Of a DNA stretch of 26,889 bases, positions 2,970-26,889 are shown one piece after another. Positions within the stretch are counted from its first letter, which is position 1. Every line of letters begins with the position of its first letter. The stretch lies in assembly GCA_002495735.1 (NCBI GenBank), contig DAGM01000050.1, positions 5,634 to 32,522 of the forward strand. Reading direction: 5' to 3'. Both the position numbers and the translations under genes were made by a program. The stretch comes from Euryarchaeota archaeon UBA54 (GTDB lineage Archaea; Thermoplasmatota; Poseidoniia; Poseidoniales; Thalassarchaeaceae). Under the pieces are notes generated by a model that worked only from the letters and a program-made list of their open reading frames with translations, was not told the origin of the DNA and made no database searches.

Positions 2970-3998
2970 TCAGGGATGTCCGGGAACCTCTCCTGACCAG
3001 TCAGGCATCTTGTTCAGCGTAATCGTCACATTCGTCACCTCGCCGTCCTCCCAGTAGTCGACGGCGATGAAGGTGGGTCTGTCACCGACCTCTTCCCAGC
3101 ACCCCAGAGTCCTCTCTAGCAGAGTGTCGTAGTCATTGACCTGCCCAGCTCTAACCGGATCGGCCAGACCAAAGGTGCTCGACAGCCAGTTGTTTAGGTG
3201 CCAGACTGGCTGGATTCCGTCGCCCCTACCAACTCTGCAAGACATCTCATCCTGTTCCTGCTCGCCATACGGCGTATCCCAACTGTGAGTCCAAGCGTGG
3301 TGCAGCCAGGGAAACCTCTCGTCATACTGGTAGTCCCAGTAGACCACAAGGTCGGTACCGTTGAGCACCATTTCTCCGATACTCGGCCAAGGCTGCCCGG
3401 GCTGGTGCACGAAGACCCTGTCGAGCATACCTGTCTGGTTGAACAGCACTTCGAGATGCTCTCCCGGGACATAGTTCTCCAGCAGCAGACTGACCACGTC
3501 GCCGCTGCTGTTGTTCATCAGCGAGCCGAGATGGCTCATCCATGCATAGGCATCCACCTCAGAGTATATGCATGGATGTAGGAAGGTGGAATCCGGGTCA
3601 CCGTGGCAGAACCGAACGTCCTCGACGGCGGTGTCTTCTTTGGACAAGTGATGAGTATCGAGCATGTATGCGCGAATCCCACCGTCCCACTGCGCTTGCA
3701 GCGCAGTATAGTGATTCATCGCCATCCATACACCATCCTCTATGGTAGCGAACGAGTTGTGAGTCTCCGGGAAGGTGAAGTTGTCGTAACTCCGCAGGCA
3801 GTACTCCGCCATACCATGACAAACAATCCCATCACTACCATTCAAGGGGTCGAGCCCGTGTTCCTCTTCCCAGCCATTCGGAAGTCCATCTCCATCTTCG
3901 TCAGCGCCCGGGTCCAACTCCGGTGGCTCTTCAGGACTGAAGCATCCTGGGCCGAACAGGCTGCAGACCAGCAATAGGGCCATCGAGAGACTCCTCAT
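2970..3998 (-). CDS. Secreted lipoprotein with PI-PLC-like phosphodiesterase domain
   Basis: The 342-residue product starts with a signal peptide whose end, LFGPGC (Cys19), looks like a lipobox. Next come an Asp-rich loop, DEDGDGLPNGWEEEHGLDP, of thrombospondin type-3 kind (about 33-51), and a domain with PETHNSF (His80), GIRAYMLDTHH (Asp114, His116) and RFCHGD (His132). These match the TIM-barrel phosphodiesterase (PI-PLC X-like) pattern of two catalytic histidines and an acidic metal or ligand residue, found in bacterial and fungal secreted PLC-like proteins. The protein would act at the outer face of the membrane on a phospholipid or other phosphodiester; the substrate is unknown. The frame is open to 4079, but ATG 3998 puts the signal peptide at the N-terminus. 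It heads a two-gene minus-strand unit with the kinase. Confidence 0.72.
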   Translation of the reverse strand: MRSLSMALLLVCSLFGPGCFSPEEPPELDPGADEDGDGLPNGWEEEHGLDPLNGSDGIVCHGMAEYCLRSYDNFTFPETHNSFATIEDGVWMAMNHYTALQAQWDGGIRAYMLDTHHLSKEDTAVEDVRFCHGDPDSTFLHPCIYSEVDAYAWMSHLGSLMNNSSGDVVSLLLENYVPGEHLEVLFNQTGMLDRVFVHQPGQPWPSIGEMVLNGTDLVVYWDYQYDERFPWLHHAWTHSWDTPYGEQEQDEMSCRVGRGDGIQPVWHLNNWLSSTFGLADPVRAGQVNDYDTLLERTLGCWEEVGDRPTFIAVDYWEDGEVTNVTITLNKMPDWSGEVPGHP

Positions 3999-4131
3999 CG
4001 CTATGAAGCGGTGCTCTCCATTCATGAAACAATCGGATTTCGTACTCAGGAAGGCCCCGCAGAGCGCTTCGCGAGACAAACGCCTCGTCGGAAGGCACTA
4101 ATCGTGAGAGCATGACCCCGCGCCGAGGGAG

Positions 4132-22887: not shown

Positions 22888-22912
22888 ATCAGAGGGCACC
22901 CTCTCTGATTCA
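22885..22912. terminator. Bidirectional hairpin containing the stop codons of both convergent genes
   Basis: TGAATCAGAG (22885-22894) is the exact reverse complement of CTCTGATTCA (22903-22912), and inside it GG pairs with CT (one wobble), giving a stem of about 12 pairs and a 4-nt loop. The first TGA is the stop of the thiolase gene, and the last TCA is the reversed stop of pyrI. The hairpin therefore exactly fills the 22-bp gap and likely ends transcription or protects both mRNA ends. Confidence 0.6.
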
Positions 22913-23377
22913 GAGGATATTCTCTACGATTTCTTCCATATCTTGACCGCGCCCGCAGTAGGAACAACGAATCTCTAGCGGCTCGATGTTGATTACTCGC
23001 AGCTTGTGCGGTAGTGGTTCGCGGGCATTTTGAGTTATACAGTTCCAAAACGAGCAGCGGGCGATGTTGACTAGATCTTCTCCGAGTTCTGCCTTCAGCT
23101 TCTTACCAACTCTGTAGTTTCGGATGATGGCAACGCTCGCTGCAGGTGCGATGAGGGCTAGCCTGTCAAGCTCCTCCTGACTGAGCTCGCGGTCCTCGAT
23201 TTTCAGTACATCCTTGCGCCCGAGTTTGGCGCTCGGCACGTTCATCACCATCGAAATCGGGTTGGAGCGCCCGATGTCCAGCCTGAGCATGCGCAGGACT
23301 TGGATTGCGCGACCACCGGGTATGTGGTCGACTACCGTGCCATTGCAAATCGCGGTAACACGCCTCATCTCGCTCAT
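22910..23377 (-). CDS. pyrI: Aspartate carbamoyltransferase regulatory chain
   Basis: Regulatory subunit that binds nucleotides and holds catalytic trimers together in the ATCase holoenzyme. The 155-residue protein has the N-terminal allosteric domain (VDHIPGGRAIQVLRML, with NPISMVMNVPSAKLGRKDVLKIEDREL) and the C-terminal zinc domain with four cysteines (CSFWNC, then CSYC). ATG 23377 is chosen because its A is the last base of the pyrB TGA stop (TGATG), with GGTG just upstream; a GTG at 23380 is possible. It follows pyrB directly, as expected for coordinated subunit production. It is convergent with the thiolase gene. Confidence 0.93.
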   Translation of the reverse strand: MSEMRRVTAICNGTVVDHIPGGRAIQVLRMLRLDIGRSNPISMVMNVPSAKLGRKDVLKIEDRELSQEELDRLALIAPAASVAIIRNYRVGKKLKAELGEDLVNIARCSFWNCITQNAREPLPHKLRVINIEPLEIRCSYCGRGQDMEEIVENIL

Positions 23378-24306
23378 CACTTCACCTTCTTGGGAACTTT
23401 TACGTCGAGGCAGTCACACAGTAGAGCCATCCTCGCGACCACACCATTGAACGCCTGCTGGAAGTATCTAGCGTGATGAGTCGAGTCGACGCTTGGATGG
23501 ATCTCGTTGACCCGAGGCAGTGGATGCATGACGATCATACTCTCCTTGGCGCCGGCCAGGTCAGAGGCCGTCAGCATGTAGATGCCGGCAACCTTGGTGT
23601 ATTCATCCTCATCGGCAAAACGCTCCTTCTGTATGCGAGTCATATAGATGACATCGGCTTCAGCGATGGTTCCGGCGAGGTCAGCAGTCTCAGTCACTTC
23701 TGCCCCCTCTGCATTTAGGTCGGAGACTATCTCGGAGGGCATTTGCAGTGATTTAGGCGATACCAGTGTCAGTGTCACGCCGAAGCGAACTAGGGCGTGA
23801 GACAGGCTGTGAACAGTGCGCCCATAGCGTAAATCACCCACTAGGACGACGTTAAGTCCCTCGAAGGTACCGTACGCCTCACGGATGGTGAAGAGGTCGA
23901 GGAGAGTCTGGGTCGGGTGGTTGCCCGCACCGTCGCCCGCGTTGAGTACCGGGATCTCGATGGCATCCGCGCTGTATTGCGCTGCACCCTGTTGTGGATG
24001 GCGAATGGCAGCCACGTCGGCGTAGCCGTCAATCATCTGCATGGTGTCGTACAGCGTCTCGCCCTTGGCCACAGAGGAGCCGGCGGAACTGAAGTTCAGC
24101 ACCGATCCACCAAGCCTTTTCATCGCGGACTCGAAGGACATCCGGGTTCTAGTGGAGTTCTCAAAGAACATGTTCGCGAGGACCTTACCTTCAAGCAGAG
24201 GGAGGTAAATATCGCCCTTGGCGGCAGGAAGGAGACGCTCGGCGTTGTCTAGGAGACTGGTAATCTCCTTGTTTGTCAGATCGTCCATCGTGATGAGGTC
24301 GCCCAT
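23377..24306 (-). CDS. pyrB: Aspartate carbamoyltransferase catalytic chain
   Basis: Catalyses the first committed step of pyrimidine synthesis, carbamoyl phosphate plus aspartate to carbamoyl aspartate. The 309-residue product has the carbamoyl-phosphate loop FENSTRTRMSFE, the SSVAKGETLYDT loop with its catalytic Lys, the GNHPTQTLLDLFTI segment and the aspartate-binding HPLPRVNEI. Length is typical. It starts at ATG 24306 with GGAAAGG upstream. It is divergent from the sugar kinase gene with about 114 bp between, a gap that holds no other gene I can see. With pyrI it forms a two-gene operon. Confidence 0.95.
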   Translation of the reverse strand: MGDLITMDDLTNKEITSLLDNAERLLPAAKGDIYLPLLEGKVLANMFFENSTRTRMSFESAMKRLGGSVLNFSSAGSSVAKGETLYDTMQMIDGYADVAAIRHPQQGAAQYSADAIEIPVLNAGDGAGNHPTQTLLDLFTIREAYGTFEGLNVVLVGDLRYGRTVHSLSHALVRFGVTLTLVSPKSLQMPSEIVSDLNAEGAEVTETADLAGTIAEADVIYMTRIQKERFADEDEYTKVAGIYMLTASDLAGAKESMIVMHPLPRVNEIHPSVDSTHHARYFQQAFNGVVARMALLCDCLDVKVPKKVK

Positions 24307-24420
24307 CGCCTTTCCTCAGCGAAGCCGGGAGCGTGCCGGTTATCTGTCTTACTATGGGCCCTCTGGACCCTTTGACACGATACCGTTGGCTTGATGTGGG
24401 GCAATTATACCGCGCGACTG

Positions 24421-25395
24421 ATGATAATCAGCCGGACCCCGGTCCGAGTCTCGTTTTGCGGCGGTGGAACAGACGTCGATTGGTTCGCCTCGTCCGAGCC
24501 TAATGGGGGCATGGTCGCCTCATTGGCACTTGACAGGCACATCCACGTGACTGTGAATCGGCGTTTCGACGACAGGGTCCGGGTGTCCTATTCCTCAATG
24601 GAGATGGTGGAGGACTTCGAGGACCTCGAGCACGAGCTGGTTAAGGAGGCCATGAGGATGACAGGAGTGACCTCCAGTGTCGAGATTACGACCATCGCCG
24701 ACATTCCCTCCAGAGGCACTGGCTTGGGCTCCTCCTCTGCAGTCACTGTGGGGTTGCTCAACGCATTGCATAGGTTCGCAGGGCACAATGCCTCTCCCGA
24801 GCAGTTGGCGGAGGAGGCCTGCCGCATTGAGATAGATATCCTCGGACAGCCAATCGGTAGGCAGGATCAGTACGCAGCCGCCTTCGGCGGTGTCAATGCG
24901 ATTAGCTTCGGCCCCGACGGCGTCGATGTAGATCCGGTGAAGATATCTCCCTATGTCGTCGAACGCCTTTCAGAAGAATTCACACTCGTATTCACCGGCA
25001 CGTCGCGAAGCGCCTCGGAAGTGCTGAGCGAGACCCCTGAAGACCCGGCTGATAAGCTGACCAGACTTCGCGTCATTCGCGGACAGGCCGACGCAGTTCG
25101 AGGTATGCTGGAGTCCGGAGATCTTGCCGGACTGGGTTCGTTGATTGGCGAGGCTTGGGATTCCAAGCGTGGCATTTCCCCAGGTATCAGCAGTGACGAA
25201 CTCGATGCCATGCACAACCGCATCATGGCTATGGGGGCCACCGGTGCCAAGCTGCTCGGTGCAGGCGGAGGGGGTTTCTTCCTGGTTCACGGCGATGCGG
25301 ACCTGCGGGTCAGGCTGGCCGAACTCGGCCCTAAGCACAGACTGATTCCCCTAGGAGTGGATGGGAAAGGCTCCATAATCATCGATGAGGCATAG
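24421..25395 (+). CDS. GHMP-family sugar kinase, HddA-like
   Basis: ATP-dependent small-molecule kinase of the GHMP fold, most like D-glycero-D-manno-heptose-7-phosphate kinases. In its 324 residues are ISRTPVRVSFCGGGTD at the start, the nucleotide loop IPSRGTGLGSSSAVTVG (about 97-113), GRQDQYAAAFGG and the C-terminal GATGAKLLGAGGGGFF. The substrate may be a heptose or fucose-type sugar for cell-surface glycans, but this cannot be fixed. ATG 24421 matches the usual family N-terminus; the frame is open to 24391. CAATTATAC just upstream is AT-rich. The EEP-type gene follows after 8 bp with an AGGTG overlapping this stop, so the two start as one transcript. Confidence 0.82.
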   Translation: MIISRTPVRVSFCGGGTDVDWFASSEPNGGMVASLALDRHIHVTVNRRFDDRVRVSYSSMEMVEDFEDLEHELVKEAMRMTGVTSSVEITTIADIPSRGTGLGSSSAVTVGLLNALHRFAGHNASPEQLAEEACRIEIDILGQPIGRQDQYAAAFGGVNAISFGPDGVDVDPVKISPYVVERLSEEFTLVFTGTSRSASEVLSETPEDPADKLTRLRVIRGQADAVRGMLESGDLAGLGSLIGEAWDSKRGISPGISSDELDAMHNRIMAMGATGAKLLGAGGGGFFLVHGDADLRVRLAELGPKHRLIPLGVDGKGSIIIDEA

Positions 25396-25403
25396 GTGTC
25401 AAA

Positions 25404-26889
25404 ATGGGCTCTCGCACTTCAGCACTGACTCTGGCGCTTCTGATGCTGTTCGGCACGCTCGCCGCCCCAGCACTCGCAGACGGTGATCAGCCGGAGACCG
25501 GCGAGCGCGACCACCCGCCAGAGGAAGGCAATGCGAGTTTTTCTGTAACAATCGATGGTCTTTTTGATGATTGGGAGTCAATCCCAGTTGTGTATGCCGA
25601 CCCTGCCGGTGATGGAACCGATGAAGATTTCAGTATGCTGAAAATTGCTAATGACAACGATTTCATGTTCTTTTCCATTGAGTTTCATGACGGGGAGCAC
25701 TTGATGCAAAACTGGAACGATATCCATCTTTATTTGGATACGGATGCAGAGGTGAACACGGGTTTGCCAGTTCATGGTATTGGAGCCGAACTGGACTGGT
25801 GTTTTGGCTGCCGAAGCGGGTATTATTACATCATGGATGGGATTATTGAAATATCTCAAAATGACTTAACCTTGAGGATTGCACCCACCATTACTGGTGA
25901 AAGATTTGAAATTGCCATCAGCCGTTCAAGCGCTATTTTAACAATGGATGGGACCCAAGAACCAACAACCATCAAGATTGTCTTACAGGGAGGCGGAGAG
26001 GCTCCTGACATTCTGCCTGATGAACCGGGAGGGATTGAATATGAGTTCGACTCTACACCGGTGCCATCACCGGAAATCATTACACTTGAAAAAAATGAAA
26101 TGGAGCATCTAAGAATTCTATCCTACAATGTTCGGCAAAATGGATTGTTTGACCCCGAACGTCAAGCAGAATTTGAGCGGATCATCAAAGCTTTGGAACC
26201 AGATATCATGGGATTCCAGGAAGCGTATGATGACAACGATACGAATGATGTCAACGATATAGAAGCGCTATTCGAGGATTGGTTTCCGGGAGTGAACTGG
26301 CACGTGAGCAGTGAGTGGAACGGAAATTTTGTCGTGTCCCGATATCCAATCTTACATCAGGGGCATCATTCATGGAGATCTATGGGTGTATTGCTGGATA
26401 CAGAAGAGGATTTGGGGACACCATTGTTTTTCATCAATTCACATTTCAGTTGTTGCGATGCCAATGATAACCGTCAGGAACAGGTGGATGAGCTCATGAG
26501 TTTCGTAAGAGATTTGAAAAATGGATTGGGTCCCTTTACCTTGGAATATGGTACTCCCATTGTACATGTGGGAGACTTCAACTTGGTTGGGTACCGACAA
26601 CAATTAACGACACTTACTGACGGCGATATTGTTGATGAAGCATCCTATGGAATTGATTTTTTACCAGATTGGGATGATTCTCCTTTGACAGATCTGTTTT
26701 CCCGCCAAACTCATATTCGAATGGGATATACCTGGAGAAGTGATAACAGTGAGTATAATCCAGGGAAACTGGATTATATTCTTTATACGGACTCAGTTTT
26801 AGAACCGGTTAAGCATTTTGTGCTGAACACACTGGCAATGTCTGAAGAGGATTTATCCTTTTACAATCTGAATTCAGAAGACACAAAAA
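25404..26889 (+). CDS. Secreted CBM9/DOMON-like plus exo/endonuclease/phosphatase-family protein, incomplete
   Basis: The frame starts at ATG 25404 and stays open for 495 codons to the window edge. Residues 1-26 form a signal peptide ending APALA. After an acidic linker, about 46-200 read as a CBM9/DOMON-like beta-sandwich (SVTIDGLFDDWESIP, LYLDTDAEVNTG). From about 233 there is an exo/endonuclease/phosphatase domain with LSYNVRQNG, PDIMGFQEAYD (catalytic Glu), HVGDFNL (Asp, Asn) and GKLDYILY; the final SDH motif would lie beyond the edge. The first 45 codons are GC-rich like the neighbours (67% in 25441-25500 by hand count), the rest AT-rich (40% in 26041-26100; 37% in 26641-26700). The substrate (nucleic acid, phospholipid or sugar phosphate) is unknown. 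Confidence 0.8.
   Translation, partial: MGSRTSALTLALLMLFGTLAAPALADGDQPETGERDHPPEEGNASFSVTIDGLFDDWESIPVVYADPAGDGTDEDFSMLKIANDNDFMFFSIEFHDGEHLMQNWNDIHLYLDTDAEVNTGLPVHGIGAELDWCFGCRSGYYYIMDGIIEISQNDLTLRIAPTITGERFEIAISRSSAILTMDGTQEPTTIKIVLQGGGEAPDILPDEPGGIEYEFDSTPVPSPEIITLEKNEMEHLRILSYNVRQNGLFDPERQAEFERIIKALEPDIMGFQEAYDDNDTNDVNDIEALFEDWFPGVNWHVSSEWNGNFVVSRYPILHQGHHSWRSMGVLLDTEEDLGTPLFFINSHFSCCDANDNRQEQVDELMSFVRDLKNGLGPFTLEYGTPIVHVGDFNLVGYRQQLTTLTDGDIVDEASYGIDFLPDWDDSPLTDLFSRQTHIRMGYTWRSDNSEYNPGKLDYILYTDSVLEPVKHFVLNTLAMSEEDLSFYNLNSEDTK

Follow-up and report, generated by a model that had tools for sequence, protein, structure and literature searches.

Exchangeable enzyme heads on a predicted surface stalk of Thalassarchaeaceae: a probable display locus with one head of Marinimicrobia-like origin

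Introduction

Polymorphic toxin systems combine a conserved carrier with alternative C-terminal toxin domains and an immunity gene. Such systems are also named in the excerpted text of PMC8416519, which describes VARTIG, a hypervariable Ig protein of Thermococcales that varies through recombination between species, and for which the authors' own searches, as given in that excerpt, found no close counterpart in other archaea. In Ca. Poseidoniales, a version of the proteorhodopsin gene acquired by horizontal transfer has taken the place of the resident single-copy gene, possibly through homologous recombination, and the surface ocean harbours Marine Group II archaea in abundance (PMC6461757, excerpt). 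Interdomain transfer of bacterial genes into Group II/III Euryarchaeota has been reported as well (PMC4122925, excerpt).

The locus analysed here lies in a stretch of 26,889 nucleotides, hereafter the window, from Euryarchaeota archaeon UBA54 of the family Thalassarchaeaceae (contig DAGM01000050.1, positions 5,634 to 32,522). The question addressed is how Marine Group II archaea, to our knowledge uncultured, gain and trade enzymes that attack organic matter. With polymorphic toxins the locus shares a conserved carrier and alternative enzymatic domains, but the toxin is C-terminal and accompanied by an immunity gene, whereas here the variable enzyme heads sit between signal peptide and stalk, N-terminal of the latter. 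As in VARTIG (PMC8416519, excerpt), part of an archaeal surface-type protein with Ig-like domains varies by interspecies recombination; yet in VARTIG the C-terminal Ig domain is hypervariable and variable genes follow, while here the Ig-like stalk is conserved and the N-terminal enzyme varies. The proteorhodopsin overwrite (PMC6461757, excerpt) concerns the same order and likewise a replacement at a conserved neighbourhood, represented here by a kinase neighbour in 67 of 70 stretches and a switch of nearest relative at the gene start; there, however, a version of the same protein entered, whereas here unrelated enzyme domains, one of them bacterial, are found within a conserved carrier. Interdomain transfer, in the excerpt of PMC4122925, is reported for genes, in contrast to a domain fused inside a resident gene. 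Same-place replacement of proteorhodopsin (PMC6461757, excerpt) and a recombining Ig protein (PMC8416519, excerpt) are already known; apparently new here are unrelated enzyme heads on a conserved stalk, for which no account was present among the matches listed in the literature, subscription papers lying mostly outside that scope.

Results

The open reading frame at 25404-26888 (495 residues) is open to the window end, and its composition changes within one frame from 65.9% GC over 25404-25538 to 42.6% beyond (Table 1). A change-point was placed at 25538 for the whole window and at 25530 within 24391-26889 (2-unit support interval 25516-25547), which confirms the sharp break near 25530-25540 that a sequence-only reading had described and whose local GC values agree with the recomputed 60-base values. 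Before 25530, none of 484 upstream segments of 1350 bases falls below 53.0% GC (mean 56.3%).

Table 1. Coordinates of features in the window, from the resident flank to the window end
Feature	Position	Strand	Remarks
pyrI-like gene (name by reading), resident flank	22910-23380	-	with pyrB nearest to G118/G113, 89-93%
pyrB, aspartate carbamoyltransferase domains, resident flank	23377-24306	-	PF02729, PF00185
GHMP kinase gene, resident flank, usual upstream neighbour	24391..25395	+	PF00288, PF08544
Inferred recombination seam, resident DNA / imported signal peptide and module	25396..25411		position approximate, near the start codon
Signal peptide, residues 1-26 (end by eye)	25404..25481	+	same kind in G001, G109
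Acidic linker, residues 27-44	25482..25535	+	residues 1-42 identical in metallopeptidase-bearing P0225
Old seam, archaeal linker / bacterial-type enzyme	25530..25538		GC break; bacterial homologues match from about residue 45
Beta-rich N-terminal module domain (putatively DOMON/CBM9-like)	25536..26117	+	beta-rich in the P0121 model; no Pfam match up to E 5; covered by bacterial homologues
EEP enzyme domain	26118..26889	+	cut by the window end before the SDH motif and before the stalk

The frame matches PF03372 (EEP) with 42.7 bits against a cut-off of 24.5 and belongs by fold to the EEP superfamily. It contains YNV, QE, SH and GDFN, which we take, together with SDH, to be the metal-site and catalytic motifs of EEP; the position of SDH falls past the window end, and P0121, P0123, P0124 and P0136, the archaeal fusions inspected for these motifs, have all five. 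The break had been located at the border between the linker and a CBM9/DOMON-like domain; its position stands, and the DOMON label is left without Pfam support, residues 45-238 giving no DOMON or CBM9 match up to E 5 when searched within the whole frame. The AlphaFold model of the relative P0121 is beta-rich in the region matching these residues and has a helix at 4-17 in the signal peptide. Foldseek with the whole model retrieved mostly multi-Ig proteins, with overall TM-scores to the query of only 0.06-0.16, while a sequence profile search of the PDB gave no match up to E 0.01 and NCBIfam none on the window frame. Elsewhere in the window, as judged by eye, 2970-4079 on the minus strand encodes a predicted secreted protein whose start is lipobox-like and which resembles a phospholipase.

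In an EEP tree of 66 rows, the window, 16 archaeal fusions and the metagenome protein P0001 form one group (SH-aLRT 97), nested in a clade (100) with 13 further rows, among them L002 and L004, two loci named as Marinimicrobia. Secreted EEP proteins of Marinimicrobia/Fidelibacterota (P0002-P0010, L002, L004) carry the same domain pair, are 70-84% identical and keep the EEP motifs; they differ from the archaeal proteins in a bacterial signal peptide and in a C-terminus of GWNLVG-type repeats or, in many farther bacterial homologues, the sorting domain PF18962 in place of the archaeal stalk. Because of this sorting domain, the farther homologues are probably secreted, too. The window module, with 42.6% GC, is close to the L004 gene (43.3%) and the L002 gene (37.4%), and gene GC is 37-43% in six Marinimicrobia-type loci, a composition which agrees with the kinship in the EEP tree; an enzyme with low-GC bacterial kin does lie in frame behind an archaeal export signal. 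Elsewhere, the EEP module is joined to zinc phospholipase C, multicopper oxidase, amidohydrolase and metallo-beta-lactamase (P0137, P0138, P0194, P0196, P0205), the relatives P0137 and P0138 being those which also have a zinc phospholipase C-type domain, and since it is fused to other enzyme domains in such proteins as well, the module seems fusion-prone.

The same junction, proposed earlier as something to seek in related genomes, is present in a Ca. Thalassarchaeum betae MAG (G001) and in 16 metagenome proteins. A protein search admitting long proteins recovered these 16 archaeal fusions (P0121-P0136; 1051-1448 residues) on contigs of up to 161 kb; both seams were inspected in all 16 and the full sequence was read in 11 of them. 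Fifteen look complete, while P0122 is incomplete and ends in a foreign-looking tail, DRKSTRLNSSHALISYAVFCLKKKKLV, presumably a translated sequencing adapter and not archaeal sequence. In the T. betae MAG, a 97-kb contig (L001) begins at residue 51 of the window frame, and a second contig (L013), whose last 91 bases are the first 91 bases of L001, ends in the kinase gene, a signal peptide of the same kind and the same seam. Bacterial homologues align from about residue 45 only. In relatives, the reading frame of the EEP module continues into a stalk that finishes with a hydrophobic helix. A signal peptide, an extracellular-type stalk and a C-terminal hydrophobic helix would be expected of a membrane-anchored archaeal surface protein, and the protein may be anchored in this way.

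P0001, the nearest row to the window on the EEP tree (support 85), is 97% identical over the whole window frame, signal peptide and all, and differs from it by substitutions before as well as after the seam. On a contig of 2029 bases, it joins the N-terminus of the window to a C-terminus of Marinimicrobia type, 87-90% identical to P0003/P0004, and represents a chimeric contig or, alternatively, a different type of allele, a primary fusion. As the window ends inside EEP, a bacterial-type C-terminus like that of P0001 is possible for the window protein, too.

Within the family, a search with the whole window frame gave matches in 6 of 148 genomes, with the enzyme only in G001 and G030; in G109, G113, G118 and G119 the match covered just the N-terminal 34-58 residues. 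Across the order, the EEP part was found in 2 of 318 genomes (G001 and G030), both times at the stalk locus. Among viral contigs, two stretches matched a pattern and neither encodes a relative.

The stalk itself is widespread: 137 of the 148 family genomes have it, and a piece of it matched in 173 of 311 genomes of the order. For a survey of heads, assigned by short motifs, 80 of the 137 loci were taken: 64 have none of the three recognised heads, 10 a serine hydrolase, 2 an EEP head and 2 a metallopeptidase, while tandem heads occur once each as metallopeptidase plus serine hydrolase and as EEP plus metallopeptidase (for G110 and G117 the assignment uses only the tail end of a head). Among the 64, 20 encode a protein of more than 760 residues, mostly with another N-terminal stretch; one of these (G070) contains long runs of N. 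Of the 80 stretches, 70 have a GHMP kinase match, and in 67 of these the distance from the end of the match to the chosen gene start is no more than 40 bases. Another 122 proteins from metagenomes (106 new among 120 listed, and P0121-P0136), again assigned by motif, comprise 57 with none of the heads, several being fragments without a start, 44 with serine hydrolase, 15 with EEP, 5 with metallopeptidase and 1 with EEP plus metallopeptidase.

The serine hydrolase head matches PF00144 (140.6 bits in P0226, cut-off 27). The metallopeptidase head has a HELGH motif of the zincin HExxH type; its profile matches lie below the cut-off for Reprolysin_5 in P0225 (18.8 of 27) and at it for Reprolysin_4 in P0136 (22.1 of 22). 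Relatives of the metallopeptidase head are encoded in 6 of 148 genomes, 4 at the stalk locus and 2 elsewhere (G002, G003), and those of the serine hydrolase head in 16 of 148, 10 at the stalk locus, 5 elsewhere and 1 marginal. The off-locus relatives are parts of other proteins (G036:C23:66636-67841, G093:C15, G090:C41, G089:C156, G022:C16; G002:C68, G003:C72) and are a possible reservoir of heads. Two side observations concern the stalk gene: in other genomes of the family (L083-L101) it has about 930-960 residues with some 230 extra at the N-terminus, whose GC fits the host, and in G119 (L067), G117 (L104) and G113 (L105) its sequence is divided between two or three reading frames, through either real decay or sequencing errors.

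Mosaic alleles are found among these proteins. P0125 and P0121 are 100% identical in signal peptide and linker, 98.9% in EEP and 47.7% in the stalk, while P0124 and P0125 have stalks 99.8% and signal peptides 45% identical; by eye, the first approximately 50 stalk residues of both P0124 and P0125 resemble P0123 and the remainder P0136. The first 42 residues of the window protein recur in front of a metallopeptidase, unchanged in P0225 and with two differences in P0228. The source of P0228 is the uncultured marine group II/III euryarchaeote SAT1000_32_C10, presumably a fosmid clone.

For a tree of the distal stalk, 148 rows were reduced to 134 with a stalk start and enough length and to 103 after near-copies among P0284-P0316 were dropped. 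Head state needs 19 changes on the 103-row tree and at least 18 on a 99-row version without the fragments P0249 and P0250 and without P0122, L104 and L120; one clade for the 17 EEP-bearing stalks is rejected (p-AU 3.3e-37), the tree being an average since stalk genes recombine. In pairs of metallopeptidase and of serine hydrolase proteins, for the latter 21 pairs among the 24 of 54 rows from which the head could be excised by motif, identity is often higher in the head than in the stalk, with an excess of about -3 to 38 points that could in part come from slower evolution of the enzymes. The GC of these two heads lies within a few points of that of their own stalks, as expected of older or native parts. 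Exchange of heads among lineages is well supported, and Thalassarchaeaceae appear to swap surface enzymes between species.

In the window, the locus looks recombinant, as judged from comparisons with relatives. The three upstream genes are nearest to G118/G113, 85-93% identical up to 25200 and 83% and 76% over the last 195 bases of the kinase gene, and these two genomes have a head-less gene here with a different signal peptide. The window signal peptide (25404-25480), in contrast, is 94.8% identical to G001 and 93.5% to G109, as compared with only 62-65% to G118/G113. Upstream, 126 informative sites side with G113/G118, 23 with G001/G109 and 6 with neither; within the signal peptide, the first pair has 2 sites and the second 18 (Fisher p 3.6e-11, with the sites, 20 of them in the signal peptide, being linked). 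As the last part of the kinase gene points both ways (11 sites with G113/G118, 6 with G001/G109, 4 with neither), the crossover is set near the start codon and not to the base. Towards L001, the module is 98.4% identical in DNA and the kinase gene 77%; 10 nonsynonymous and 7 synonymous codon differences separate the two modules, which gives no sign of strong purifying selection.

Capture of the enzyme behind a resident export signal, as first proposed, is therefore correct only in that an enzyme with bacterial kin lies in frame behind an archaeal signal; the signal is not resident, given that the upstream genes are nearest to G118/G113 and the signal peptide to the module-bearing G109/G001, and probably came together with the enzyme by recombination from another lineage of the family. 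Nor could a sequence-only reading reveal that this enzyme is just one among the alternative heads of a longer protein. Two seams are distinguished, the old one at 25530-25538 and a younger one about 130 bases upstream, invisible to composition.

Discussion

The locus is probably one for surface display with exchangeable ectoenzyme modules, the window holding the first part of one allele whose EEP head came from a Marinimicrobia-like bacterium. Its conserved frame would combine a signal peptide with a beta-rich stalk that closes with a hydrophobic helix at the C-terminus, the gene lying in most cases directly behind one for a GHMP kinase. Between signal peptide and stalk, the head would vary by strain and species, being absent, a serine hydrolase (PF00144), a zincin metallopeptidase, an EEP enzyme or a tandem of two. 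Acquisition of the EEP head from the bacterium would apparently have been a single event, in which the enzyme was trimmed to its domain borders and joined in frame on either side; the head may then have moved among archaeal lineages through recombination in the conserved flanking sequence, for which homologous recombination would be the route, the transferred tract sometimes taking along the signal peptide and about 50 stalk residues. In the window genome, an EEP allele would have replaced a head-less resident one, with the crossover near the start codon.

The heads fall in hydrolase families. The likeliest function of the EEP head is that of a predicted ectoenzyme which, at the cell surface, would break down phosphodiesters, nucleic acid among them, for the nutrients they yield. 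The same exchange might serve another purpose, the alteration of an exposed surface for escape from viruses or grazers or in conflict with neighbours, and variation against viruses is the main rival to the nutritional role. A variable exposed part on a conserved stalk is indeed the pattern of VARTIG and of polymorphic toxins (PMC8416519, excerpt); as only three kinds of enzyme are recognised and the EEP motifs are intact, which would favour catalysis, and as many loci carry none of the three heads, surface variation as the purpose is considered unlikely.

A single capture in place, behind the lineage's own signal peptide and without exchange among archaea, would suffice for the enzyme as such, the archaeal EEP modules forming one group, yet appears improbable when the window signal peptide and the upstream genes differ in their nearest relatives, near-identical modules sit on stalks 48% alike and the EEP stalks are not one clade. 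Entry of unrelated kinds of heads between the same two points could also be the work of a mobile element or site-specific recombinase; by eye, however, the open reading frame lists of the window and L001 contain no integrase or transposase, and tracts extend into signal peptide and stalk, as homologous recombination would give, which leaves a dedicated mechanism of this kind with little to recommend it. An assembly or binning chimera of archaeal and Marinimicrobia contigs, the other explanation of the sequence-only reading, accords with the abrupt composition change, with contigs of G001, G030, G110 and G117 that end inside or beside a head and with P0001 as itself perhaps chimeric, but is hardly credible: different lineages have the in-frame seam, flanked on either side by substitutions, also on long contigs (up to 161 kb), and the far end of the module likewise keeps the frame, so that the composition break of the window is genuine and no assembly artefact.

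If the locus is indeed one of surface display with exchangeable heads, its alternative heads, mosaics and traceable bacterial source make the question of how Marine Group II archaea obtain and trade such enzymes testable from existing metagenomes, where the frequency of each head can be followed across depths, seasons and substrates. As the contig ends in the four genomes named above warn, genes of this kind will be misread both by composition-based binning and by whole-gene annotation. For the family as a whole, the chances are about evenly balanced that Thalassarchaeaceae hold a pool of exchangeable ectoenzyme heads, in which one recombination event can give a stalk a nuclease-like, peptidase or serine hydrolase head, a tandem of two or none, and bacteria supply new heads; if so, the use of extracellular substrates would shift between archaeal species while the rest of the genome stays unchanged.
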